Shown here: one piece after another, positions 19,663-64,000 of the stretch | Numbering within the stretch: the first letter of the stretch is position 1 | How the letters are laid out: every line of letters begins with the position of its first letter | Assembly (NCBI GenBank): GCA_945952065.1 | Contig: CAMFGY010000007.1 | Location: 62,001 to 126,000, forward strand | DNA from: an uncultured Burkholderiales bacterium | GTDB taxonomy: Bacteria > Pseudomonadota > Gammaproteobacteria > Burkholderiales > Burkholderiaceae_C | Direction of reading: 5' to 3' | DNA: 64,000 bases | The notes under the pieces: generated by a model | What the model saw: only the letters and a program-made list of their open reading frames with translations | The model's database searches: none | Told to the model about the DNA's origin: nothing | Made by a program: the position numbers and the translations under genes

Positions 19663-20721
19663 ATGATTGACACCTTCTACCAATCTGGCGCGCAGCTCTT
19701 GGGTGGCGCCTGGCCTGTGATCTGGAATCTGATCAAGATCATCGTCTTGGTTCTTCCGTTGATGATCTGCGTGGCCTATTTGACCCTGTGGGAACGCAAG
19801 GCCATTGGCTGGACGCAGATTCGGCCCGGCCCGAACCGCGTGGGCCCATTTGGCTTGCTGACCCCTATTGCCGACGCTGTGAAGTTGATCTTCAAAGAGA
19901 TCATTGTTCCCACGGCGGCCAACAAGGGCTTGTTCTTCATCGGCCCCATCATGACCATCATGCCGGCCTTGGCCGCTTGGGTGGTGGTGCCCTTTGGTCC
20001 TGAAGTGGCCTTGGCCAATATCAATGCCGGTGTTTTGCTCTTGATGGCGATCACCTCCATCGAGGTGTACGGCGTCATCATTGCGGGCTGGGCTTCGAAC
20101 TCCAAGTACGCGTTCTTGGGGGCTTTGCGCGCCTCCGCACAGATGGTCAGTTACGAAATCGCCATGGGCTTTGCTCTGGTGGTGGTGCTGATGGTGAGCG
20201 GTAGCTTGAACATGACGGACATCGTCATGGGGCAGGGCAAGGGCCAGTTCGCCGATATGGGTCTGGGTGTGCTGTCTTGGAACTGGTTGCCGCTGCTGCC
20301 CATCTTTGGCGTGTACTTCATCTCGGGTCTGGCCGAGACCAACCGTCACCCCTTCGACGTGGTGGAAGGTGAGTCGGAAATTGTGGCCGGCCACATGGTC
20401 GAGTACTCGGGCATGTCCTTCGCGATGTTCTTCTTGGCTGAATACGCCAATATGTGGTTGGTCTCCATCCTGACCGTGCTGTTCTTCCTGGGCGGTTGGT
20501 TGTCGCCATTCGCGGCCTTGGACTTCATTCCAGGCTGGATCTGGCTGGGTGCCAAGACCTTCATCGTCGTGACCATGTTCTTGTGGGTGCGAGCCAGCTT
20601 CCCGCGTTACCGCTACGACCAGATCATGCGTCTGGGTTGGAAGATTTTTATCCCTGTGACCCTGGTCTGGTTGGTCGTGATCGGCCTCTGGATCCAATCG
20701 CCCTACAACATCTGGAAGTGA
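19663..20721 (+). CDS. nuoH: NADH-quinone oxidoreductase subunit H
   Basis: Membrane subunit that links the quinone cavity to the proton channels. 352 aa with about eight membrane helices. Conserved sequences: [24 protein letters not shown] near the start, and the charged loop [22 protein letters not shown] in the middle. 16 bp after nuoG and 14 bp before nuoI. Confidence 0.98.
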
Positions 20722-20735
20722 GCTGAGGTCCTCCC

Positions 20736-21221
20736 ATGTCTGCAGTAAGCTTCATCAAGAGCTTCATGCTCATCGAGCTGTTCAAGGGTTTGGCCCTGAC
20801 TGGACGGCATTTCCTGTCGCGCAATATCACGGTGCAGTTCCCGGAAGAGAAGACACCGCTGTCGCCGCGCTTCCGTGGTTTGCACGCGCTGCGCCGTTAT
20901 GAAAACGGCGAAGAACGCTGCATTGCTTGCAAGCTGTGCGAAGCCGTGTGCCCGGCCATGGCCATCACCATTGAAGCCGGTGTGCGGGACGATGGTTCAC
21001 GGCGCACCACGCGTTACGACATTGACCTGACCAAGTGCATCTTCTGCGGCTTCTGCGAAGAGAGTTGCCCGGTGGACTCGATCGTTGAAACCAATATTTT
21101 TGAGTATCACGGCGAAAAACGCGGCGATCTGTACTTCACCAAGGACATGTTGCTGGCCGTCGGTGATCGCTTCGAACCCGAGATCGCAGCCCAAAAGGAG
21201 GCCGACGCCAAGTACCGCTGA
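20736..21221 (+). CDS. nuoI: NADH-quinone oxidoreductase subunit I
   Basis: Ferredoxin-like subunit with two [4Fe-4S] clusters (N6a and N6b). 161 aa. The two motifs are [16 protein letters not shown] and [16 protein letters not shown], each followed by the distal Pro that binds the partner cluster. An amphipathic N-terminal helix precedes them. A very stable hairpin begins 7 bp after its stop codon. Confidence 0.98.
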
Positions 21222-21228
21222 TCGCGTT

Positions 21229-21262
21229 GTTTGAGACTTGGCATCAAATGCCAATCTCAAAC
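21229..21262 (+). repeat. Near-perfect 15-bp hairpin between nuoI and nuoJ
   Basis: GTTTGAGA, a bulged C, then TTGGCAT, a CAA loop, ATGCCAA and TCTCAAAC. All 15 possible pairs form. The gap between nuoI and nuoJ is 72 bp in an operon whose other gaps are mostly under 20 bp. No T-run follows, so it should not terminate; an RNA-stabilising or processing role is likely. Confidence 0.85.
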
Positions 21263-21293
21263 GCCGTGAGACTGCTGCTTTGCAGGAAGACGC

Positions 21294-21944
21294 ATGGATA
21301 TCACCACTGCTTTGTTCTATATCTTCTCAGCCGTACTGCTGGGTGCTTCGTTCCGTGTGATCACGGCACAGAGCACGGTGCACTCGGCTCTGTTCTTGAT
21401 CTTGGCTTTCTTCACCGCCTCCTGCATCTGGATGTTGCTGAAGGCAGAGTTCTTGGCCATCACCCTGGTGTTGGTCTATATCGGCGCCGTGATGGTGCTC
21501 TTCCTGTTCGTGGTGATGATGCTGGACATCAACTCTGACCATGTGCGGGAAGGCTTTTGGAAGCATTTGCCGCTGGGCGCCTTGGTGGGTACTTTGATCG
21601 CCCTGGAAATGGCGGCCGTGCTGATGGGCGGCTTCCGCTTGAGCGAAGCGCCGGCAGCCACCGAAGCCGCTTTGAAGCTGGGCAATACCAAGATGCTGGG
21701 GGTGTCGATTTACACCCAGTACCTCTACCCCTTGCAAATCGCCGCGGTCTTGTTGTTGGTGGCCATCATCGCGGCCATCGCGCTGACCCTGCGCAAGCGC
21801 AAAGATTCGCGCAGCCAGAACCCTTCTGAGCAGGTCAAGGTCAAGAAGGCCGATCGTTTGCGCGTCATCAAGGTGGCGCCAAGCGTGGAAGTTCCAGCCG
21901 CCCCTGCTGCAGACGCAGCCGCCGATACAGGAGCCAAAGCATGA
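21294..21944 (+). CDS. nuoJ: NADH-quinone oxidoreductase subunit J
   Basis: Membrane subunit with five predicted helices; its third helix ([18 protein letters not shown]) carries the conserved bulge. 216 aa, about 30 longer than the E. coli protein because of a polar tail after the last helix: a Lys/Arg-rich stretch ([11 protein letters not shown] onward) then an Ala-rich end. The tail should be on the cytoplasmic side. Its stop codon overlaps the nuoK start by 4 bp. Confidence 0.96.
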
Positions 21945-22252
21945 TGACCCTGACGCTGGGCCACTTTCTGACCCTGGGCGCAATGCTGTTTGCGCTGTCG
22001 GTGGTGGGTATCTTCATGAACCGCAAAAACTTGATCGTGCTCTTGATGGCGATTGAGCTGATGTTGCTGGCCGTGAATCTGAATTTCGTTGCCTTCTCGC
22101 ACTATTTGGGCGATATGGCTGGGCAAGTCTTTGTCTTCTTCATCTTGACCGTGGCGGCCGCCGAGTCGGCCATCGGCCTGGCCATCTTGGTCGTGCTGTT
22201 CCGCAACCGCGCCACCATCAATGTCGAAGAACTCGACGCGTTGAAGGGCTGA
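21941..22252 (+). CDS. nuoK: NADH-quinone oxidoreductase subunit K
   Basis: Small membrane subunit, three helices, 103 aa. The conserved acidic residues lie in the second and third helices: [14 protein letters not shown] and [13 protein letters not shown]. Overlaps nuoJ by 4 bp (ATGA), indicating translational coupling, and ends 7 bp before nuoL. Confidence 0.98.
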
Positions 22253-22259
22253 TCGCCAT

Positions 22260-24311
22260 ATGTCCGCACAACTCTCTCAAAACATGTTGCTTGCGGTGCC
22301 TTTGGCACCCTTGGCCGGCGCCGTCATTGCCGGCCTGTTTGGCAAGCAGGTGGGGCGCGCTGGCGCTCACAGCGTCACCATTCTGGGCGTTTTGATCGCC
22401 TTCATCATCTCTGCAATGACCTTGAACTCGGTCATCAGCGATGGTGCTCGCTTCAATCAGACCATTTATGAATGGATGGTGGTCGGTGGCCTGAAGATGG
22501 AAGTCGGCTTCTTGGTCGACGGTTTGACGGCCATGATGATGTGCGTGGTGACCTTTGTGTCGCTGATGGTGCACATCTACACCATCGGCTATATGGAAGA
22601 AGACCCGGGCTATCAGCGCTTCTTCAGCTACATCTCCTTGTTCACCTTCTCGATGTTGATGCTCGTCATGAGCAATAACATGCTGCAGCTGTTCTTCGGC
22701 TGGGAAGCCGTGGGCCTGGTCAGTTACCTCTTGATTGGTTTTTGGTACACCAAGCCGACAGCGATCTTCGCCAATATGAAGGCCTTCCTGGTCAACCGTG
22801 TCGGTGACTTTGGCTTCATCTTGGGCATCGGCTTGCTGGTGGCCTATGCCGGCTCTTTGAACTACACCGAGGTCTTCGCCAAGCGCGAGCAACTCGCCAC
22901 CATCGCTTTCAATGCGCCGCTGTGGGGCAGTGACTGGATGCTGCTGAGCGTGGCTTGCATCTGCTTGTTCATCGGCGCCATGGGCAAGTCGGCTCAGTTC
23001 CCGCTCCATGTTTGGCTGCCGGACTCGATGGAAGGCCCGACACCGATTTCTGCGCTGATCCACGCCGCCACCATGGTGACGGCCGGCATCTTCATGGTGG
23101 CTCGCATGAGCCCGCTGTTTGAGTTGTCGGATACCGCTTTGAATTTCGTGTTGGTGATCGGTGCGATCACGGCGCTGTTCATGGGCTTCCTGGGCATCAT
23201 TCAAAACGACATCAAGCGCGTTGTGGCCTACTCGACCTTGTCGCAGCTGGGCTATATGACGGTGGCTTTGGGCGCCTCGGCCTACTCGGTCGCGGTGTTC
23301 CACTTGATGACCCATGCCTTCTTCAAGGCCTTGTTGTTCCTCGGCGCCGGCTCGGTCATCATCGGCATGCACCACGATCAGGACATCCGCAATATGGGCG
23401 GGCTGCGCAAGTACATGCCCATCACATGGCTGACTTCGCTGCTGGGTTCCCTGGCGCTGATTGGCACGCCGTTCTTTGCCGGCTTCTATTCCAAGGACAG
23501 CATCATCGAAGCGGTGCACGCCAGCCATTTGCCCGGCGCAGGTTTCGCTTACATCGCGGTCGTGGCCGGTGTTTTCGTGACCGCCTTCTATTCCTTCCGT
23601 ATGTATTTCCTGGTCTTCCATGGCAAGGAAAACTTCCGTCACAAGCCTTTCCCGGGCGAGCATGACCATCATGATGATCATGGTCACCATGAGCCGCACG
23701 TGCCGCATGAGTCGCCTTGGGTGGTGACGCTGCCACTGGTGCTGCTGGCGATTCCTTCGGTGCTGATTGGCTACTTTGCGATCCAACCGATGCTGTTTGG
23801 CGATTTCTTCAAGGACGCGATCTTCGTCAACCACGAAGTGCACCACGCCATGAAGGAGTTGGCCCATGAGTTCCATGGCGCTGCCGCCATGGCCATCCAC
23901 GGCTTGAGCACCTTACCCTTCTGGCTGGCCCTGGGTGGGGTGGTGACGGCCTATGTGTTCTACATGGTCGCGCCGAGCATTCCCAAGACCATTGGCCGTG
24001 TCTTGTCGCCCGTCATCAAGGTGCTGGAAAACAAGTACTACTTGGACTGGTTCAATGAAAACGTGTTGGCCAAGTTGGCGCGGGGGCTGGGCCTGGCTTT
24101 CTGGAAGGGCGGCGACGCGGTGCTGATTGATGGTCTGATCATCAATGGTTCGGCTCGTACCGTGGGTGGCATTGCCAGCCTGGTTCGCCTGGTGCAAACG
24201 GGTCATCTGTACTGGTATGCGCTGGTGATGATTCTGGGCGTGATCGGACTGATGACGTGGCAGCTGTGGCCCTATATATGGCCCCAATTCAAGACCTTGG
24301 CCGGTCTTTGA
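22260..24311 (+). CDS. nuoL: NADH-quinone oxidoreductase subunit L
   Basis: Largest antiporter-like subunit, at the distal end of the membrane arm. 683 aa with about 16 helices and the long lateral amphipathic helix in the C-terminal third. Proton-path residues are seen in GWEAVGLVSYLLIGFW, and the key Lys/His segment in SAQFPLHVWLPDSMEGPTPISALIHAATMV. A histidine-rich loop (EHDHHDDHGHHEPHVPHES, about residues 467-485) lies in a polar segment between helices. Confidence 0.98.
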   Translation: MSAQLSQNMLLAVPLAPLAGAVIAGLFGKQVGRAGAHSVTILGVLIAFIISAMTLNSVISDGARFNQTIYEWMVVGGLKMEVGFLVDGLTAMMMCVVTFVSLMVHIYTIGYMEEDPGYQRFFSYISLFTFSMLMLVMSNNMLQLFFGWEAVGLVSYLLIGFWYTKPTAIFANMKAFLVNRVGDFGFILGIGLLVAYAGSLNYTEVFAKREQLATIAFNAPLWGSDWMLLSVACICLFIGAMGKSAQFPLHVWLPDSMEGPTPISALIHAATMVTAGIFMVARMSPLFELSDTALNFVLVIGAITALFMGFLGIIQNDIKRVVAYSTLSQLGYMTVALGASAYSVAVFHLMTHAFFKALLFLGAGSVIIGMHHDQDIRNMGGLRKYMPITWLTSLLGSLALIGTPFFAGFYSKDSIIEAVHASHLPGAGFAYIAVVAGVFVTAFYSFRMYFLVFHGKENFRHKPFPGEHDHHDDHGHHEPHVPHESPWVVTLPLVLLAIPSVLIGYFAIQPMLFGDFFKDAIFVNHEVHHAMKELAHEFHGAAAMAIHGLSTLPFWLALGGVVTAYVFYMVAPSIPKTIGRVLSPVIKVLENKYYLDWFNENVLAKLARGLGLAFWKGGDAVLIDGLIINGSARTVGGIASLVRLVQTGHLYWYALVMILGVIGLMTWQLWPYIWPQFKTLAGL

Positions 24312-24329
24312 TCAGGGCGGAGAACAAGA

Positions 24330-25808
24330 ATGTTGCTTAGTCTTGCCATTTTTCTACCCATCGCCTGCGGCCTGATCCTCTTGGCCCTGGGCCGTGATGA
24401 CCAAGCCAAGACCGTGCGTTGGCTGGCTTTGATTGCTTCTTTGGCCTGTTTTGCGGTCACGCTGCCCTTGATTGGCGGCTTTGACACCAGCACGGCCGCC
24501 ATGCAGTTCGTTGAGAACCAGCCCTGGATTGAGCGCTTCAATGTGCGCTATCACCTGGGCGTGGATGGCATCTCGATGTGGTTCGTGCCCCTGACGGCCT
24601 TCATCACCGTCATCGTGGTGCTGGCCGCTTGGGAAGTGATCGAAACCCGCGTCAACCAGTACATGGGCGCCTTCATGATCCTGTCGGGTCTGATGATTGG
24701 CGTGTTCTCGGCGCTGGATGGTCTGCTGTTCTACGTCTTCTTCGAAGCGACCCTGATCCCCATGTACATCATCATCGGTGTCTGGGGTGGCCCGCGCCGT
24801 GTTTATGCGGCTTTCAAGTTCTTCTTGTACACCCTGGCCGGCTCCTTGTTGATGCTGATCGCGCTGCTGTATTTGTACTTCCAGTCTGGCGGCTCCTTCG
24901 ACATCCTGACCTGGCACAAGCTGCCCTTGGGTTCGCAAGCGCAAACCCTGCTGTTCTTCGCCTTCTTGGCGGCCTTCTCGGTGAAGGTGCCGATGTGGCC
25001 AGTGCACACCTGGCTGCCGGACGCTCACGTGGAAGCCCCGACCGGCGGTTCCGTCGTGCTGGCGGCCATCATGCTGAAGCTGGGTGCTTATGGCTTCCTG
25101 CGTTTCTCCATGCCGATCACGCCTGACGCGGCGCATCAGTGGTCGTGGTTGATCATTGCCATGTCCTTGATTGGCGTGGTCTACATCGGCTTGGTGGCGC
25201 TGGTCCAGCAAGACATGAAGAAGCTGGTGGCTTATTCCTCCATCGCGCACATGGGTTTTGTGACCCTGGGCTTCTTCATCTTCAACGAACTCGGCATGGC
25301 CGGCGGTCTGGTGCAGATGATCTCGCACGGCTTTGTGTCGGGTGCCATGTTCTTGTCCATTGGTGTGCTGTACGACCGGGTGCATTCGCGTGAAATCGCC
25401 AGCTATGGCGGTGTGGTCAACACCATGCCCAAGTTCGCGGCCTTCGCCTTGTTCTTTGCCATGGCCAATTGCGGCTTGCCAGCAACCGCCGGCTTTGTCG
25501 GTGAGTGGATGGTGATTCTGGGGACCGTCAAATACAGCTTCTGGCTGGGCGCTATTGCAGCCACTGCCTTGATCTTTGGCGCCGCTTACTCGCTGTGGAT
25601 GTACAAGCGCGTCTATTTCGGTGCGGTCACCAACGATGAGGTCAAGAACCTCAGCGACATCAACGCCCGAGAATTCTTGATGATGGCGGTGCTGGCAGTT
25701 GCAGTGCTGTGGATGGGTGTGTATCCCAAGCCCTTTACCGACGTCATGCAGGTCTCTGTGAGCGAGTTGCTCAAGCATGTGGCCGTATCCAAGCTGAGCG
25801 GCATTTGA
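24330..25808 (+). CDS. nuoM: NADH-quinone oxidoreductase subunit M
   Basis: Antiporter-like proton-pumping subunit. 492 aa, about 14 helices. Characteristic stretches: [18 protein letters not shown] with the conserved Glu, [24 protein letters not shown] with the channel Lys, and [12 protein letters not shown]. It follows nuoL by 18 bp and precedes nuoN by 16 bp. Confidence 0.98.
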
Positions 25809-25824
25809 GAGAGGCCACACCCAA

Positions 25825-27306
25825 ATGAACACTATGAACTGGCTCGCGGTCTATCCCGAAATTGCGCTCTTGGTCATGGCCTGTATCGTGGCCATGGTGG
25901 ATCTGTTTGTCACCGATCCAGCGCGACGCCCCACCTATTGGCTGACTCAACTCACCCTGGCCGTGGTGGGTGCGGTGCATCTCAGCTACTTCAATGACGG
26001 AGCCACCGTTTACGCCATGCAAGGCATGGTGGTGGCCGACCCGATGGGGCATTTGCTGGCCTTCTTTGCTTGTGTCGCAACCATCATCACCCTGGTTTAT
26101 GCGCGGCCCTATGCGGCTTCGCGTGACATGCTCAAGGGCGAGTTGTTCACACTGACGCTGTTCTCTTTGCTGGGCATTTTTGTGATGCTGTCAGCGAACA
26201 ACTTCCTGGTCATTTACCTGGGCCTGGAGTTGATGAGCTTGTCTTTGTATGCCTTGGTGGCCCTGCGTCGTGACCATGCCAATTCGACCGAAGCGGCGAT
26301 GAAGTACTTTGTGCTGGGCGCTCTGGCCAGCGGCTTCTTGCTCTATGGCTTGTCCATGATGTATGGCGCGACCGGCTCGCTGTCGATCCCGCAGGTCTTC
26401 AACGTCATCAGTGCCGGCGTGCCGAACAAATCGGTGCTGGTGTTTGGCGTGGTGTTTGTGGTGGCCGGCTTGGCCTTCAAGCTCGGTGCGGCTCCTTTCC
26501 ATATGTGGGTGCCCGACGTTTACCAAGGCTCGCCAACTGCGGCCACGCTGCTGATTGGTGCTGCGCCCAAGTTGGCAGCCTTCGCCATCACCATCCGCCT
26601 GCTGGTGGAAGGCATGATTGGCTTGGCCGTGGACTGGCAGCAAATGCTGATTGTGTTGGCCGTGATGTCCTTGCTGGTCGGTAACTTGGCCGCCATCGCC
26701 CAGACCAATCTGAAGCGCATGTTGGCTTACTCCACCATTGCGCAGATGGGCTTTATGTTGCTGGGCCTGGCCTCGGGCGTGGTGAACAACAACACCTTGT
26801 CGGCCGCAAATGCCTACAGCTCCGCGATGTTCTATGTGGTGACCTATGTGATGACCACATTGGGCTCCTTTGGCATCATCTTGCTGCTCTCGCGTCAAGG
26901 TCATGAGGCTGAAGAAATCAAGGATTTGGCCGGTTTGGCCAAGCGCAGCCCCTGGTACGCGACCGTGATGACCATCTTCATGTTCTCGCTGGCCGGTGTG
27001 CCGCCCACCGCAGGTTTCTATGCCAAGTTGTCGGTGCTGCAAGCCTTGGTTTCGACCAATGTGAACTTCTATTTGGCGCTGGCCGTGCTGGCCGTGGTGG
27101 TGTCTTTGATCGGCGCTTTCTACTACCTGCGCATTGTCAAAGTGATGTTCTTTGATGAGCCCAGCGACACGGCGCCTTTGGCTGCGCCCAGCGATGTTCG
27201 GGTGGTCATGTCTTTGAATGGCGCTGCTGTGCTCTTCTTCGGCTTGCTCCCGGGCGGTTTGATGGCGATGTGCGCGCAAGCCATCGTCAAGACGCTGGCC
27301 ACCTGA
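25825..27306 (+). CDS. nuoN: NADH-quinone oxidoreductase subunit N
   Basis: Third antiporter-like subunit, next to NuoK. 493 aa, about 14 helices. Family signatures: [19 protein letters not shown] with the conserved Glu, [20 protein letters not shown] with the channel Lys, and [16 protein letters not shown]. Last true complex I gene of the operon; DUF2818 follows after 16 bp. Confidence 0.98.
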
Positions 27307-27322
27307 GCCTGAAGCGCTTTTG

Positions 27323-27631
27323 ATGGATCAGCAGACAGCGATCTGGCTGGTATTGATCGCCGCGCTCGCGGCGGCCAACTGGCCCTATCTCAGCCACCGT
27401 ATTTTGCTGATCGGCCCGCTGCGGCGGCCCAAGTCGGCCGCTTGGCTGCTTTTGGAGCTCGCATTGCTGGCTGTTTTGACTCTGGCCTTGGGCTTCGCCT
27501 TGGAAGCGAAGCTGGGCCAAAGACATCCGCAGGGTTGGGAGTTCTATGCGGCAGGTTTGTGCCTGTTCATCACTTTGGGCTTCCCCGGCTTTGTCTGGCG
27601 TTACCTGAGGCGATCGCGCCATGAAGACTGA
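27323..27631 (+). CDS. DUF2818 membrane protein
   Basis: Small membrane protein of unknown function, 102 aa with three hydrophobic segments (about 5-22, 45-62 and 76-93). The conserved N-terminal pattern is QTAIWLVLIAALAAANWPYL. From memory DUF2818 genes regularly follow nuoN in Burkholderiales, which suggests a role tied to complex I; that is inference. The start is ATG 27323, next to a TTG at 27320. Overlaps the next gene by 11 bp. Confidence 0.85.
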   Translation: MDQQTAIWLVLIAALAAANWPYLSHRILLIGPLRRPKSAAWLLLELALLAVLTLALGFALEAKLGQRHPQGWEFYAAGLCLFITLGFPGFVWRYLRRSRHED

Positions 27632-28235
27632 GGTTCCTGCGCCAGCTGATGCAACAGCCGATGCGCATTTGCGCGAGCATTGCGTGGCGTCGGCAGAGGT
27701 TTACAAGGGCAGTTTTTTGCGAGTCAAACGCGATGTTGTTCGTTTGCCCGACGGTGCAAACGCCACCCGCGAGTACATCGTGCACCCCGGTGCGGTGATG
27801 ATTGTTCCCCTGCTCGACGATGGTCGCCTGTTGATGGAGCGCCAGTTCCGCTACCCGATGGGGCGGGCCATGTTGGAGTTCCCCGCTGGCAAGTTGGATG
27901 CCGGCGAAGCACCATTGCGATGCGCGCAAAGAGAGTTGCTGGAGGAGACCGGCTACAGCGCCGCCGAATGGGCGTATGCCGGCGTTTTGCACAATGCCAT
28001 TGCGTATTCAGACGAAGGCATACACATTTTGTTCGCCCGCGGTTTGAAATCCGGCGTCCAGTCTCTGGACGAGGGCGAGTTTCTCGATATCGTCACCCAC
28101 AGCGTGGACGAGCTTGAGTCCATGGCGGTCAAGGGCGAACTGACGGATGCCAAGACGCTCATTGGCCTGCTTTGGCTGACACGCTGGCAGCGGGGTGAAT
28201 GGGCCTTGGATTGGCAATCTGGCGCCCAGCGCTGA
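27621..28235 (+). CDS. Nudix hydrolase, ADP-ribose pyrophosphatase type
   Basis: Likely hydrolyses ADP-ribose or a related nucleoside diphosphate sugar. 204 aa. The Nudix box is complete: GKLDAGE, seven residues, then RELLEETGY (about residues 93-115), preceded by the MERQFRYPMGRAMLEFPAG segment typical of ADP-ribose pyrophosphatases. It overlaps the DUF2818 gene by 11 bp, so it is part of the nuo transcript and translationally coupled. Confidence 0.88.
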   Translation: MKTEVPAPADATADAHLREHCVASAEVYKGSFLRVKRDVVRLPDGANATREYIVHPGAVMIVPLLDDGRLLMERQFRYPMGRAMLEFPAGKLDAGEAPLRCAQRELLEETGYSAAEWAYAGVLHNAIAYSDEGIHILFARGLKSGVQSLDEGEFLDIVTHSVDELESMAVKGELTDAKTLIGLLWLTRWQRGEWALDWQSGAQR

Positions 28236-57724: not shown

Positions 57725-60700
57725 TCAGTCATGGCTGTGGCTATGGGCTTGGCCCGCCAGCTCCTCGTTGATGGGGGTGACCCCAGCCTTCATGCCCTCA
57801 AAGAAGAAGGGCCGCCGGGCCTTGTTGCGCGGCCACACTTCGTTGAGGGTGCTGGCTTCGAACAGCCGGCCGTTTTGCATCACCTGGCTGATTTGATCGC
57901 TGTTGCGGATATTGCCCAGAATGTCGCCGCTCAGGATGATCAGGTCGGCCAGCTTGCCGACCTCCAAGGAGCCCAGGTCTTTGTCCAAGCCCAGGCTTTG
58001 CGCCGGATTCAAGGTGGCGCTGCGGATGGCCTCCAGCGGGCTCATACCGCCCAGGCCAAACATCCACATCTCCCAATGCGCCCCCAAGCCTTCGCGCTGC
58101 CCATGGGCACCGATATTGGTGCGCACACCTGCACGCTGCAATTCGGTGGCGGTTTTGGCGACGCGCAGCACATTGAAGTCTTCTTCCGGCGCGGTCAAAC
58201 GGCGCACGCTGCGCGCTTGCAGCAGGGCCGGCGGCACGAAACGGCTCAGCAAAGGATGCTTCCAGACTTCGGTGCGGGCGTACCAATAGTGCTCGCCATC
58301 CAAGCCGCCAAAGCCCACATTCAAGGTGGGCGTGTAAGCCACCTGGGTTTGCGACCAGAGCTGTTTCACATCGTCGTACACCTGGGCCACCGGCAGCGAA
58401 TGCTCGATGCTGCTGTGGCCGTCCACCAGCATGCTCATATCGAGCTGGAACAGCGAAGCGCCCTCGGGCACCACCATCATGCCGGTCTGGCGCGCAGCTT
58501 CAATGACTTGTTGGCGTTGCTCGCGTCGGGGCTGCTGGTAGCTTTTGACGCTGATGGCCCCGGCCGCCTGTTGGCGCTTCAAATGCACCAAGGCGTCGTC
58601 CAGCTTGTTGATGACGGCGGTGAAGGGCGTTTTCGCGCCGTAAAGAATCGTGCCGGTGGAGTAGATGCGCGGCGCCACCACGGTGCCCGCTCGCTGCATT
58701 TCGGCTTGGGTGAAGATGTCGCCGTTGCGATTGGAGGGGTCGAACAGGGTCGTCACCCCAAAAGCCAGCGAAGCGTAATTGACCCAGCTTTGTTGCGGAA
58801 TGATCTCTGATTCACCCATGCCGCCATGCCAATGCGCATCGATCAGGCCGGGGATGACGGTCTTGCCGCTGAGGTCCAAGACCTTCGCCCCGGCCGGCAC
58901 GCTCACCTGGCCTTTGGCGCCGATGGCGGCGATGCGATTGCCCTGCACCACGATCACGCCCTCGGGGATCACTTCGTCAACCTTCATCGTCACGATGCGC
59001 GCGCCGCTGAGGGCGAGGGTGCCGCTGGGCGCGTCGGCCTTCTGCATGAAGCCGATGGCTCGGCCTTGTCCCGTGGGCTTGTAGTCCGCCTGTCCTGGCG
59101 CAAAAGCATCGGCCAGGGCGGTCGTGAAGAGTTGGTCGGCGGCCGTGAAGTGCACCTGGCGGCTGTCGCCGCTCCATTGCATGGCCTCGCCGCTGATCAC
59201 ATCCAACTGACGCACCGGCAGCGCATCCATCTTGGGGCCGACGTTGATGGGCTTGCCGGCCTGCGGCAGCGGCGTCACATAGGCGTGAAAGCGCTCCACA
59301 AAGCCCAGCCATTGGCCGTCCGGCGAGATGCTGAATTCGGTGGCAAATTCAGATTTGGCGATCTCGGTCTCTTGCCTGTCCTTCAAGTCAATCCGCACCA
59401 GCTTGCGGACAAAGTCCACCTCACTGCTCATGGCCGAACGGCTCAAATAGACGGCATCATTGCGCGCGCCAAACTGCGGTGCTTCGCCGTCCTTGGCGAT
59501 GCGCTGCGGCGTGCCGCTGCCATCGGCAGCAGCCAGGTAGATGCCTTTGTCCAGGCCGTGCCAAGGTGAAGTCAGATAGCCGCCGGCTTGCTTGCTGTAG
59601 ACCACCGACTTGCCATCTGGCGAGAACTTCGGGGCCAGGTATTTGCCGGGGGCCTGGGTGATGGCGGTCTCGAGTCCACTGGCCAGCTCCAGCTTGCGCA
59701 CGCTGCCCAGTTGTTCATCGTTCCAGGTCACAAAGACCAAGGCTTTGCCGTCGCGCGAAAAACTCGGGAAGAACTCAAAGGCATCGCTGCGCTGAGTGAG
59801 GCGTCGAGGCACTTGTGCCTCTTTGCCGCTGCGCAGGTCTTTGATGTAGAGCTGACCGAGCGCGGAGTAGACCACCGCGCTGCCATCGGGCGCCACCGTG
59901 GCCCAACGCAGCTGCTTTACGGCAAATTGATCAGGGGCCACCTCTTGCGTCTGACGCAAGGCCTCGCGCACTTCGCGCTGGTCTTTCACATGGAAGGGAA
60001 TTTCTGTGGCCGTGCCCGCAAAGGGATCGACCTTCCAGATGCGGCCCTGCGCCCAGGTCACCACATGCTTGGCGTCGGGCGTCCAGGCAAAAGCGGGGTA
60101 GACCCCGTTGACCGACCAGGACTCTTGCAAGTCGCGCTCCATCTGGGCCCAGACCGGCTTTTCCTGGCCGCTTTGCAAGTCTTTCAAAAACAAGGTGCTT
60201 TGGTTGCGGATGCGGCGAACAAAGGCCAGGTATTTGCCGTCCGGTGAGGGGGTGGGGCGCACGGCGCCGCCTGCGCCTTGCACCAGGGGCTCTACCGTGC
60301 CATCACGCAAGTCTTGGCGGAAGATTTTGAAGATCTCGCCATTGGCATCTTTGTTGTACTCAAACTCCCGGCCCGGGGTGGTGTCGCGGGAGTAGTAAAG
60401 CGTGTTGCCGTCGGGCGATATCGCGGGTTCGCCCAGGTCTTTTTGCCAGTTGGGTTTTTCATTGAGCTGCACGCCCTTGTTGTTGGCGCCGCCGTCCACG
60501 TGATAGAGCCAGATTTCGCCGGAGCCCGCAGAGCGCGTGCCGGTGTAGTGCTTACGGGCCGCAATGTATTGCCCATTGGGGTGCCACACCGGGTTGTTCA
60601 ACAGTCGGAAATCTTCATGGCTGACCGCGCGTGGATGGGTGCCGTCGGCGTTCATCACCCAGATGTTGTCGCCACCGCCGGCATCGCTTTGGTAGGCAAT

Positions 60701-61057
60701 CTGCTTGCCGTCGGGCGAGAAGCGCGGCTGCTGCTCCCAGGCGACGGAATGCGTCAACGCCCGCGCTTCGCCACCGCTGATGGGCAAGAGGTACAGATCG
60801 CCGAGCAGATCAAAGACGATGGTTTTGCCATCTGGGCTGACATCCAGCGACATCCAAGTGCCGCTGCGGATGTCGATGTCGACATGTCGGCTCGGGCCTG
60901 GCGCTTGGTTGACGTTCCACTTGCTCGGGCTGGCCGCTGCGGTGCTGTTGCCGTGGGTAGCGGTGGTTTGAGCGCAAAGCGAAGCGCTGAGCAAAGGCAG
61001 CAGCGCCAAGACGCTGCACTTCAGCACCCGCGCAGGGGCCAAAAGACGTGGTTTCAT
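57725..61057 (-). CDS. Exported beta-propeller / amidohydrolase fusion protein
   Basis: 1110 aa. A signal peptide (about 1-29, ending SASLCAQ) points to export. The first 650 residues are TolB/WD40-like PD40 repeats, several with SPDGK cores. The last 430 are an amidohydrolase: metal HxH in GLIDAHWHGGMGE, a likely bridging Lys in ISVKSYQQP, His in HSSIEHSL, and NIGAHGQREGLGAHWEMW where many relatives have GTD. It ends in a His-rich tail (HSHSHD). Substrate unknown; probably an amide, peptide or cyclic compound in the periplasm. The start MKPRLLAP has no strong ribosome site; the frame stays open upstream. Confidence 0.82.
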   Translation of the reverse strand: MKPRLLAPARVLKCSVLALLPLLSASLCAQTTATHGNSTAAASPSKWNVNQAPGPSRHVDIDIRSGTWMSLDVSPDGKTIVFDLLGDLYLLPISGGEARALTHSVAWEQQPRFSPDGKQIAYQSDAGGGDNIWVMNADGTHPRAVSHEDFRLLNNPVWHPNGQYIAARKHYTGTRSAGSGEIWLYHVDGGANNKGVQLNEKPNWQKDLGEPAISPDGNTLYYSRDTTPGREFEYNKDANGEIFKIFRQDLRDGTVEPLVQGAGGAVRPTPSPDGKYLAFVRRIRNQSTLFLKDLQSGQEKPVWAQMERDLQESWSVNGVYPAFAWTPDAKHVVTWAQGRIWKVDPFAGTATEIPFHVKDQREVREALRQTQEVAPDQFAVKQLRWATVAPDGSAVVYSALGQLYIKDLRSGKEAQVPRRLTQRSDAFEFFPSFSRDGKALVFVTWNDEQLGSVRKLELASGLETAITQAPGKYLAPKFSPDGKSVVYSKQAGGYLTSPWHGLDKGIYLAAADGSGTPQRIAKDGEAPQFGARNDAVYLSRSAMSSEVDFVRKLVRIDLKDRQETEIAKSEFATEFSISPDGQWLGFVERFHAYVTPLPQAGKPINVGPKMDALPVRQLDVISGEAMQWSGDSRQVHFTAADQLFTTALADAFAPGQADYKPTGQGRAIGFMQKADAPSGTLALSGARIVTMKVDEVIPEGVIVVQGNRIAAIGAKGQVSVPAGAKVLDLSGKTVIPGLIDAHWHGGMGESEIIPQQSWVNYASLAFGVTTLFDPSNRNGDIFTQAEMQRAGTVVAPRIYSTGTILYGAKTPFTAVINKLDDALVHLKRQQAAGAISVKSYQQPRREQRQQVIEAARQTGMMVVPEGASLFQLDMSMLVDGHSSIEHSLPVAQVYDDVKQLWSQTQVAYTPTLNVGFGGLDGEHYWYARTEVWKHPLLSRFVPPALLQARSVRRLTAPEEDFNVLRVAKTATELQRAGVRTNIGAHGQREGLGAHWEMWMFGLGGMSPLEAIRSATLNPAQSLGLDKDLGSLEVGKLADLIILSGDILGNIRNSDQISQVMQNGRLFEASTLNEVWPRNKARRPFFFEGMKAGVTPINEELAGQAHSHSHD

Positions 61058-61251: not shown

Positions 61252-61809
61252 TCAGCGGCCGCGCTCTGCGGCCTTCTTCTTGGCGGGCCGGGCGGGCTTG
61301 TTGGGTTTTTCGGCTTCGCTCGCCGCCGCTTGCCATTGCTCCAATGCGGACACGGTGTTCATGTGCGTGAGCACGCGAACCAGATAGTCGGGCGCCAGGG
61401 CTTGCAACTGCTGCAGCAGGCGCGTGGCCAGCGCCTGGCCATTGAGCGGACCCAGCGGCGCAGTCACCGGCGCATGCAACTCGGCCAGGCTGTGCGCCAC
61501 ACGCAGGCGCCGCCAGGTGCTTTGATGCAATTGCACTTGCTGCAAGGCGTCGCTGGCATGCTGGGGCAGCAAGGCCCGCAGTTCGGCGACCGGGTTGCGC
61601 AGGGCAGGGCGGGGCGGCTGAGACGTGCTGACAGGCGGGCGCTGGGCGCGCTGCTGCAGCTTGGCGATCAGGTGCTCGCGCAAGGCCCCGGGCGGCTGGG
61701 CGGCCGCGCGCTGCGCCAGGCTTTGCAGCATGCGGCGGCGCACCGGGTCCGTGGCTTGGGATCCCGCCCATTGCACCAGGTCGACATTCACTTCATGCGG
61801 CATGTTCAC
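61252..61809 (-). CDS. DUF2894 protein
   Basis: Cytoplasmic protein of unknown function, 185 aa, no signal or membrane helix. Helical throughout, Gln/Ala/Leu-rich, with a basic Lys/Pro-rich tail (EKPNKPARPAKKKAAERGR). The pattern LRALLPQHASDALQQVQLHQSTWRRLRV resembles DUF2894. The GTG start at 61809 overlaps the stop of the upstream OmpA-like gene by 4 bp (GTGA); ATG 61803 is the alternative. From memory this family is found beside DUF802 and OmpA-like genes in other Burkholderiales. Confidence 0.75.
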   Translation of the reverse strand: MNMPHEVNVDLVQWAGSQATDPVRRRMLQSLAQRAAAQPPGALREHLIAKLQQRAQRPPVSTSQPPRPALRNPVAELRALLPQHASDALQQVQLHQSTWRRLRVAHSLAELHAPVTAPLGPLNGQALATRLLQQLQALAPDYLVRVLTHMNTVSALEQWQAAASEAEKPNKPARPAKKKAAERGR

Positions 61810-62453
61810 GGCGTCAGCACCGCAGCGGCGCGCTTGGGGCGCGGTGTGGGGGCGATTTCAACGCGCCGATTGAGGGCGCGCCCGGCCGCGCTGTCGTTGG
61901 AGGCCACCGGTTGTTGCGACCCAAAAGCCGCCGAGAACACCGCATCAGGTGGCAGGCCGTCGGCCAGCAGGGCGCGCGTCACGTTCAAGGCGCGGCGGGC
62001 CGAGAGGTCCCAGTTGTCGGTGAACTGCATGCCGGGCACCACGCCACGGTCATCGGTAAAGCCGCTGACCATCAAAATCTCATCCCTTTGGGCCAGATAG
62101 GTACGCAGCGGTTTGGCCAAGGCCGCGAGCAGGGCGCGTCCATCGGCCAGCAATTGATCGGAGCCGGTGGCAAAGAGCACGGCGCTGTTGATGCCAATGC
62201 GCCCTTCTACCAAGGTGATGCGGCCATCGGCCAGCGGGCCGGCCAGTGCGCGTTCCAAGGCTTCGCGGCGGCTTTGTTCGGCTTTGCGCTGCTGCATTTC
62301 GGCTTGCAATTGATGGGCAAGGTCCAGCTGCCCCACCAGGGCAGCCGCCAGCACCAACACGAAAGCGCCCAAGACGCCGGCCATCAAGTCACCAAAAGCA
62401 GCCCAAGCATGGGCGGCCGTGCCTTCGTGCTCCAGCTCCAGCTGATCATCCAT
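61806..62453 (-). CDS. MotB/OmpA-like peptidoglycan-anchored membrane protein
   Basis: 215 aa. One N-terminal membrane helix (about 17-41, AWAAFGDLMAGVLGAFVLVL) containing a single acidic residue, D22, placed like the proton-binding Asp of MotB. A helical linker (about 45-70) leads to an OmpA-like domain with VSGFTDDRG, TDNWDLSARRALNVTRALL and NRRVEI, the peptidoglycan-binding signature. AAGGAG lies 8 bases before the ATG. It overlaps the DUF802 gene by 8 bp and DUF2894 by 4 bp, so all three are translationally coupled. Confidence 0.85.
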   Translation of the reverse strand: MDDQLELEHEGTAAHAWAAFGDLMAGVLGAFVLVLAAALVGQLDLAHQLQAEMQQRKAEQSRREALERALAGPLADGRITLVEGRIGINSAVLFATGSDQLLADGRALLAALAKPLRTYLAQRDEILMVSGFTDDRGVVPGMQFTDNWDLSARRALNVTRALLADGLPPDAVFSAAFGSQQPVASNDSAAGRALNRRVEIAPTPRPKRAAAVLTP

Positions 62454-64000
62454 GGGGGGCCGCTCCTTGCAGTGCATCCAGGATTTGCTTTTGCGAGCCC
62501 AGGCAGAGCTCGATCACCTCGCGTGCTTGGGCCACGTAATAGCCCAGTTGCTCGTCGCTGCGGTTGATGCTGGCGGCCAGGCGTTCTTCCAGCGCCGCCA
62601 AATGCTGTTGCAGCTGAAGGTTGCTCTGTTGGAACTGCTCAATGGCGGCGCCAAATCCATCGCCCACGCTGGCGATATCGGCCGCGCTGGCCGCCAAATG
62701 GGTGGCGGCATCGGCCAGCGAGTGGCCCGAGGCTTCGGCCAGCGCGGTGAAGCGCTGCCCCACGGTCTCAATCTGATGGGCCGAGCGGTCCACCAGGGCG
62801 TCAATCGCGCGGCGTTGTTCGCCAGCGGCTTGCTGCAGCGAGCTGAGCAGGGTGGACACCGTGCTCATCAGTTCGCTTCGTTCCAACAGGGCCGCGCGAT
62901 CTTGCGCTTGGCTTTGGGCCAGTTGCTCACGCAAAGCCGCCACCACTTCCACCGCCGCGCGGGGCGCTGCACTGGCGGCTTGCAAAATTTCGCCCGCCTC
63001 GCTCAGGGTCTTTTGGGAACAGACTTCGGCTTGAGCGACCAAGCTGCGGGTGTTGGTCAAGAGTTCGTCGGCGAGCGCTTGTTGTTGCTGCAGCTGTGCG
63101 GCCCCGGCTGCCGTCAGCTCGCTGCGCCAAGCGGCAAGGCGCGCCGCTTCATCGGCTTCTTGCGCGGATTGCAATTGCTGGAAGGCCGCGCCGATGGCCG
63201 CAATGCTGGCCTGCATTTGCTCTGCGGACAAGCGGCTGATCTCGCTGAGCGCTTGGTTGGCGCGCGCATCGCTGTCTTGCAGCATTTGCACAGCCTGGGC
63301 CCGCTGATGGGCCAACGCAGCTTCGAGGGCCTCGCGCTGCTGCTTCAAGGCCGCGGCATCGGCCGAGGCCTGAGCATGGCTTTGCTGGTCGCGAGCATCC
63401 AGGGCTGCGAGCTGACGCTCTTGGGCGCGCGAAACCTGTGCCAGCAGGTCTTGCATTTGGGCCGCGAACTGCTGTGCGGCTTGGCTGAGCAAATCGCCGG
63501 CGCCGGCTTGTTGCGCCTGCAGCGCTTGCAGCTGATCTTGCAGGGCCGCCCAGCGGGCTTGATCGGCTTCGGCCTGGGCCGCTTGCTGGCGGCTGACCAT
63601 GGCGTCCAAGGTCGCCAACATCGCTTGCGCATCGGATGCCCAACGCTGAGCCTGCGCCTGCGAGCTCCGCTCCGCGGCCGCGGCCGCGTCCTCCAAGAAA
63701 CGCTGCGACATGGCATGTTGCGCGGCCAGCGCCTCGGTCTGCTGCTGAGCGGCGAGTGCTTGTTGATGCTGCATGCGCTCGGCCCCGGCTTCAAATTGGG
63801 CGGCCAGTCCGCTCAATTGCTCGCTGACCACCTGGCCCACGCGCTCATGCAAAGCCCCGGCTTCGCTGGCAATGCCGGCCATCGCGGATTTCGCGGACGT
63901 CTGCATGGCCGCGCCGGCTTCTTTTGCCGCGTCATTCAGGCTGCTGCGCAACGTGGCATCCACACTTTGGGCCAAGGCCAGATAGGCCTTGCTGGTTTCG
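62446..64000 (-). CDS. DUF802-type long coiled-coil protein, C-terminal part (5' end cut by window)
   Basis: The last 517 residues of a protein open to the right edge. Almost wholly helical, very rich in Ala, Gln, Leu and Glu, with few Pro or Gly: a long coiled-coil or helical rod without membrane helices in the visible part. The end RSDEQLGYYVAQAREVIELC then LGSQKQILDALQ is the most conserved-looking block. Function unknown. The coupling to a MotB-like gene suggests a stator-like complex in which the missing N-terminus would hold membrane helices; that is inference. Confidence 0.72.
   Translation of the reverse strand, partial: ETSKAYLALAQSVDATLRSSLNDAAKEAGAAMQTSAKSAMAGIASEAGALHERVGQVVSEQLSGLAAQFEAGAERMQHQQALAAQQQTEALAAQHAMSQRFLEDAAAAAERSSQAQAQRWASDAQAMLATLDAMVSRQQAAQAEADQARWAALQDQLQALQAQQAGAGDLLSQAAQQFAAQMQDLLAQVSRAQERQLAALDARDQQSHAQASADAAALKQQREALEAALAHQRAQAVQMLQDSDARANQALSEISRLSAEQMQASIAAIGAAFQQLQSAQEADEAARLAAWRSELTAAGAAQLQQQQALADELLTNTRSLVAQAEVCSQKTLSEAGEILQAASAAPRAAVEVVAALREQLAQSQAQDRAALLERSELMSTVSTLLSSLQQAAGEQRRAIDALVDRSAHQIETVGQRFTALAEASGHSLADAATHLAASAADIASVGDGFGAAIEQFQQSNLQLQQHLAALEERLAASINRSDEQLGYYVAQAREVIELCLGSQKQILDALQGAAPHG

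Follow-up and report, generated by a model that had tools for sequence, protein, structure and literature searches.

A probable Zorya type III anti-phage system in an uncultured Burkholderiales bacterium, with ZorA divided into motor, rod and candidate docking tip

The Zorya type III genes at the locus

The window analysed here, a 64,000-nucleotide stretch of contig CAMFGY010000007.1 (positions 62,001 to 126,000) from an uncultured Burkholderiales bacterium, ends on the right in three minus-strand genes, each overlapping the next, which encode a DUF2894 protein, an OmpA-like protein (ZorB) and a long helical protein (ZorA). We used a 14-kb stretch spanning the right end of the window (L002) to read zorA beyond base 64000, where a DUF3348 gene follows. 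PADLOC models for Zorya type III match all four proteins (Table 1), and the ZorA3 match spans ZorA residues 14-771. The cluster is very probably a complete Zorya type III anti-phage system, in the order DUF3348 gene, zorA, zorB and DUF2894 gene, that works by the stator-and-docking mechanism outlined below.

An earlier note on this DNA had claimed overlaps of 8 and 4 bp among the three genes in the window, and both are confirmed (ATGGATGA between zorB and zorA, GTGA between the DUF2894 gene and zorB). It had also named the DUF2894 protein, in agreement with Pfam, and predicted a DUF3348 gene beyond the rod gene, which is present with its end overlapping the zorA start by 4 bp. Given these overlaps, the four genes are probably translated as one coupled unit. 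An alternative in-frame ATG lies 24 bases upstream of the zorB start chosen here. We compared the cluster with 80 named loci, those closest by ZorB similarity among 548 confirmed relatives (three of them, L061-L063, repeat loci of the genus set described below). ZorA, ZorB and DUF2894 occur together in all 80 and DUF3348 in 74, indicating that the layout is not due to chance; of the six loci lacking DUF3348, five lie at contig edges and one (L062) has a truncated zorA.

Zorya type III was defined in 2021 as a motor pair flanked by DUF3348 and DUF2894 proteins, in an account that counted 6,401 cases and reported that the system of Stenotrophomonas nitritireducens DSM 12575, cloned in Escherichia coli, reduced phage plaquing (PMC8565338). 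The definition is repeated in a 2025 paper (PMC11890865). The letters given to the two flanking proteins are swapped between sources: DUF3348 is ZorF and DUF2894 ZorG in PMC8565338, and they are ZorG3 and ZorF3, respectively, in PADLOC-DB 2.0.0. The earlier note had seen a parallel with Zorya in the MotA-like and OmpA-like layout. That layout holds, and the PADLOC matches of all four proteins make the cluster Zorya type III and not merely a parallel to it. The words "uncharacterised" and "unknown purpose" have to be dropped, the type having been published in 2021 and a relative having protected E. coli (PMC8565338). The label DUF802 for the rod protein also fails, as the full 776-residue ZorA has no Pfam DUF802 match at E ≤ 0.1; a "DUF802 domain-containing protein" is named beside the OmpA gene under the ZorB match in 4 of 27 plasmid records listed. 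The identification itself concerns an already known type; this analysis adds only where the cluster lies, how the unit has moved within the genus and how ZorA divides into motor, rod and tip.

Table 1 Features of the Zorya type III cluster, in window coordinates unless marked L002.
Feature	Position	Strand	Details
DUF2894 gene	61252..61809	-	185 aa; Pfam PF11445 2.8e-15; PADLOC PDLC00652 1.1e-21
zorB	61806..62453	-	215 aa; membrane helix and OmpA/MotB-type domain; PADLOC ZorB3 1.1e-90, positions 1-210/215
ZorB OmpA-like domain (residues 93-196)	61866..62177	-	PF00691 1.7e-17
ZorB D22 codon	62388..62390	-	conserved Asp at membrane-helix start
zorA, part in the window (517/776 aa: cytoplasmic helical rod and C-terminal module)	62446..64000	-	PADLOC ZorA3 1.4e-169; hydropathy; alignments
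ZorA conserved C-terminal module (residues 596-776), candidate docking tip	62449..62991	-	identity over 33 relatives; invariant residues
zorA remainder, four-helix MotA-like motor domain	up to base 64776 (L002:2447-4777)	-	beyond the window
DUF3348 gene	equivalent of 64773-65477 (L002:4774-5478)	-	234 aa; PF11828 2e-25; PADLOC 2.6e-37

Motor, rod, tip and the two helical proteins

ZorB has the single hydrophobic helix (peaking at residues 23-41) and OmpA domain that the earlier note had described. Its profile matches solved ZorB chains (8qyd_F, 9.7e-8, profile 6-198; 8vvn_B, 1.2e-7, profile 6-201). D22 opens the helix, and aligning the N-termini pairs it with D24 of 8vvn_B, an Asp described for types I and II as crucial to defence and as a critical part of the ion path (PMC11890865). 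Conservation of D22 in orthologues, proposed earlier as a check, was complete, with Asp in all 80 relatives, and six residues of the OmpA domain (D134, N147, R154, N195, R196 and R197) were equally invariant.

The N-terminus of ZorA, missing from the window, had been predicted to carry MotA/ExbB-like helices. The full 776-residue protein has four hydrophobic segments there (around residues 8-26, 35-53, 114-132 and 167-185) in a MotA-type core, and a soluble N-terminus did not occur; together with the conserved ZorB Asp, these helices support the earlier guess of a stator-type machine. T126 and S168 align with the Thr and Ser of solved ZorA 8vvn_C (core alignment E 1.6e-6), which fits the expected Ser/Thr ring. 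T126 is Thr in 75 of 80 rows and S168 is Ser in 74, all remaining rows having gaps at these positions.

Most of the part of ZorA in the window is helical rod, as expected from the earlier description of a helical partner of more than 500 residues, and two prolines occur after residue 260. Across 34 ZorA sequences (our own and 33 relatives), the motor spans 183-205 residues and the C-terminal module 181-266 (median 188.5), while the middle rod ranges from 207 to 481 (SD 78). Over the 33 relatives, mean identity to our ZorA was 0.54 in both the motor and the C-terminal module and 0.34 in the rod, and seven module residues that we checked (R739, D741, Q743, Y746, V748, Q750 and Q762) were identical in 80 of 80 relatives. 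PADLOC ZorA1 and ZorA2 models end at or before residue 342 of our ZorA, leaving the C-terminal module unmatched by them. From this pattern we infer that this end of ZorA, specific to the type, may be where the DUF proteins make contact, a candidate docking site. Matches of ZorA to apolipoprotein and to designed bundles were attributed to the composition of the helical rod.

An AlphaFold2 model of the DUF3348 protein (from the relative in L061, with 55 sequences) was all-helical and confident (pLDDT 91, pTM 0.84), and that of the DUF2894 protein was all-helical with uncertain packing (pLDDT 82, pTM 0.41). Neither model had a fold match in the Protein Data Bank (PDB) at E ≤ 0.001, and a sequence search against the PDB gave no match for DUF3348. 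A weak hit of DUF2894 to PscE (0.012) was distrusted because the aligned part of DUF2894 is a short helical stretch. Neither protein matched any Pfam or NCBIfam model above cut-off besides its own DUF, and no enzyme signature was recognised in either, though an all-helical fold does not exclude enzyme activity. In PADLOC, Pfam and NCBIfam no known nuclease or helicase domain was found in any of the four cluster proteins.

Distribution and movement

ZorB3-class matches were found in 43 of 150 sampled family genomes, our own included (17 of the 150 fell below the quality bar). All carriers have E ≤ 5.5e-89, and a clear gap separates them from the next match, at 2.2e-25. An unfiltered tally of 149 of 150 was set aside because it included OmpA-domain proteins, and the same search also gave matches in 3 of 14 control genomes. 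From the 43 carriers, 30 loci were fetched, and 29 of them entered the family ZorB alignment with our own protein. One strong ZorB3 match (L008, G016:C61:7704-8339) contains an internal TGA stop, possibly marking a decayed copy or a sequencing error, and was left out of the alignments.

Within the genus, ZorA occurs in 8 of 18 genomes, with 70-100% identity in six of them and 37-38% in the remaining pair; two of the ten genomes lacking it are under 80% complete. All eight carriers have all four genes, split over two contigs in G150. There, one contig (G150:C43; L049/L062) holds zorB, the DUF2894 gene and a zorA reduced to its final ~236 residues, and a 3.6-kb contig (G150:C18; L036) holds a full zorA and the DUF3348 gene; the assembly may be split here, or the truncated zorA may belong to a second copy.

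For our genome and five congeners whose ZorA is of the same lineage (G150, G151, G155, G156 and G157), we compared ~19 kb per side. The Zorya unit aligns at 71-74% between our genome and the congeners and mostly at 81-92% among the congeners. The aligned stretch is limited by the DUF2894 stop codon at one end and, at the other, by a point roughly 25-90 bp before the DUF3348 gene, near a TAAAAT-like box (L049 was left out of the second of the two comparisons on which these limits are based). Twelve of the 15 genome pairs had no flanking DNA in common, and the other three shared some of it, rearranged: our genome and G156 have 14 kb of one neighbourhood in common with the Zorya unit inverted within it, G151 and G155 about 12 kb in changed arrangement, and G151 and G150 one 1.1-kb piece. 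In G156 the unit sits between two copies of a dienelactone hydrolase gene (L043 3701-4600 and 9327-10220), 82-83% identical to our own copy, which suggests local duplication or inversion; the four congeners examined around this gene have no Zorya unit there. The two divergent carriers, G152 and G161, have a neighbourhood in common near an amidohydrolase gene. This patchy presence and the changed flanks point to accessory-gene behaviour, as expected for defence.

Over the wider set, grouping by at least three shared same-side flanking genes (single linkage) placed 39 of 80 loci in 7 groups and left 41 alone, with more than 5 kb available on both sides in only 61 of the 80. With one shared gene as the threshold, 71 of 80 joined a single group, so weak flank sharing is uninformative. 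Origins on phages or plasmids were considered and rejected. None of 50,697 phage records contained a ZorB relative at E ≤ 1e-10, and 28 pattern matches to ZorB in viral contigs yielded none that was confirmed. Plasmid records with a match numbered 27 of 72,556, were 366 kb to 3.5 Mb long and were rated non-mobilizable in 20 of 27 cases, suggesting that they are mostly large secondary replicons.

Among the neighbours at our locus are genes for glycine cleavage, for serine dehydratase and for an amidohydrolase; certain gene labels in L002, aldehyde dehydrogenase among them, were assigned by reading the sequence, not by scan. Among ten flanking proteins searched with PADLOC there was one match, of TatD to QatD, which we take as an ordinary TatD nuclease. 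The amidohydrolase domain belongs to a 1084-residue protein with WD40-like propeller repeats (window 57725-60979, minus strand); 17 of the 18 genus genomes have its gene, a stable neighbour of a Zorya unit that moves. On the other side, L002 9031-9948 (plus strand) encodes a 305-residue peptidase M9 (collagenase) family protein that is nearly all domain. Farther away, at window positions 20001-28000, AT skew is pronounced (two 4-kb bins at -0.20 and -0.26) and the plus strand has long frames.

Mechanism, alternatives and known systems

The favoured model for Zorya types I and II has wall damage followed by binding of ZorB to peptidoglycan, ion flow, movement of the ZorA rod and recruitment of a partner, and the 5:2 structure, the need for ion flow and peptidoglycan binding have been shown for these two types only (PMC11890865). 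By analogy, the four-helix ZorA and the one-helix ZorB with its D22 most likely assemble 5:2 into a rotary stator driven by ions; in type III, too, we infer this assembly, a need for ion flow and binding to peptidoglycan. ZorB would bind peptidoglycan, and disturbance of the wall at phage entry would let it engage. An ion path would then open, with ZorB D22 working against ZorA Ser/Thr residues such as T126 and S168, and the five-fold ZorA rod would turn or change shape. The distal, type III-specific module of ZorA may capture or activate the DUF3348 and DUF2894 proteins, which would stand in for ZorC and ZorD of type I or ZorE of type II, although the partner may instead be a host protein. 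Such a capture may lead on to the step that stops the phage. One version, which we put forward tentatively and consider rather unlikely as a whole, is that type III is a Zorya without a nuclease, in which a motor drives a rod of variable length whose tip (ZorA 596-776), type-specific and strictly conserved, clamps two all-helical DUF proteins, forming a mechanical or channel-gating assembly that stops the phage without cutting DNA.

Several points weigh against reading the cluster as a defence system of this kind. The 5:2 assembly and ion flow are transferred from types I and II, phage protection by this cluster is a prediction transferred from the assayed type III relative, and the docking role of the ZorA module is a candidate drawn from its conservation. 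The locus is not a defence island. In Burkholderia cenocepacia, the Zorya III operon responded to infection in its first one or two genes only, in a direction not given in the passage concerned, and the authors omit Zorya III from the systems they describe there as transcriptionally active (PMC12584637). Type III is also highly conserved in Ralstonia solanacearum, being present in at least 90% of genomes (PMC13064858), and a single group sharing three or more flanking genes takes in 16 of 18 Stenotrophomonas-type loci; both patterns suggest that type III is stable in some lineages.

The strongest competitor to partner recruitment along the rod, possible but on balance doubtful, is abortive infection by ion leak: infected cells would die because ZorAB lets protons through, and the DUF proteins would merely gate this channel. 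This is an older Zorya proposal cited in PMC8565338, which itself proposes that the DUF pair regulates ZorAB. The absence of recognised nuclease or helicase domains from the four proteins and the all-helical DUF models that match nothing in the PDB would suit such a channel, but work on types I and II favours recruitment of ZorCD or ZorE by ZorAB (PMC11890865), and the conserved distal module of ZorA suggests a signal passed down the rod to a partner. Considerably less probable is a housekeeping stator of the envelope or of cell division (Tol/Pal-like), with the anti-phage effect a by-product of wall perturbation on overexpression. The metabolic neighbours at our own locus, the common Stenotrophomonas-type flanks and the core or quasi-core status of type III in R. 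solanacearum (PMC13064858) are what such a role would lead one to expect; 107 of 150 family genomes nevertheless have no ZorB3-class match and ten of 18 genus genomes no ZorA (with the quality limits given above), neighbourhoods changed within the genus, and a type III relative protected E. coli (PMC8565338). A paralogue of flagellar or ExbBD/TolQR stators with incidental neighbours, for which the generic MotA/ExbB/TolQ core and OmpA domain could be cited, was ruled out as scarcely credible, given the wide margin by which the ZorA3 and ZorB3 models outscore those for Zorya I/II and flagellar MotB, and the strict linkage of two cognate DUF genes to the pair. We know of no flagellar, ExbBD or TolQR stator with a rod of the ZorA kind.

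With Zorya type III as the preferred identification, the finding adds, as a routine matter, one more carrier of a published defence type. Its importance is modest and lies in type III being the least understood Zorya. Individual roles of the DUF3348 and DUF2894 proteins are not the subject of any test we found in the passages of the literature devoted to type III, and the split into motor, length-variable rod and conserved tip makes the question of what they do a simple deletion experiment.

The pair resembles flagellar MotAB and PomAB in its four-helix A subunit and in a B subunit that combines one helix, the Asp of a DLM motif and an OmpA-like domain. It differs in its operon partners, which are here the DUF3348 and DUF2894 genes, and in the long rod of ZorA, which replaces the torque-generating loop. 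Flagellar MotB models scored far below cut-off for ZorB, the scanned flanking genes are metabolic, and NF006547 ("hypothetical protein") was the sole model above cut-off among the 25 of 36 NCBIfam models listed. Zorya types I and II, represented by the solved ZorAB structures 8qyd and 8vvn, are closer, sharing a MotA-like ZorA with a long cytoplasmic tail and a ZorB with a critical Asp and a peptidoglycan-binding domain; the C-terminal module of our ZorA lies outside the reach of their models. PADLOC found no ZorC, ZorD or ZorE among the four cluster proteins or the ten flanking proteins, the rest of the genome not having been searched for them. Zorya type III itself matches in having ZorAB flanked by DUF3348 and DUF2894, with type-specific profile matches for each (PMC8565338). 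Our ZorA is 62-72% identical to nine rows of the Paucibacter/Roseateles group and 33-43% identical to the other 24 aligned rows, and the difference from the tested S. nitritireducens system is that the cluster described here belongs to another host.

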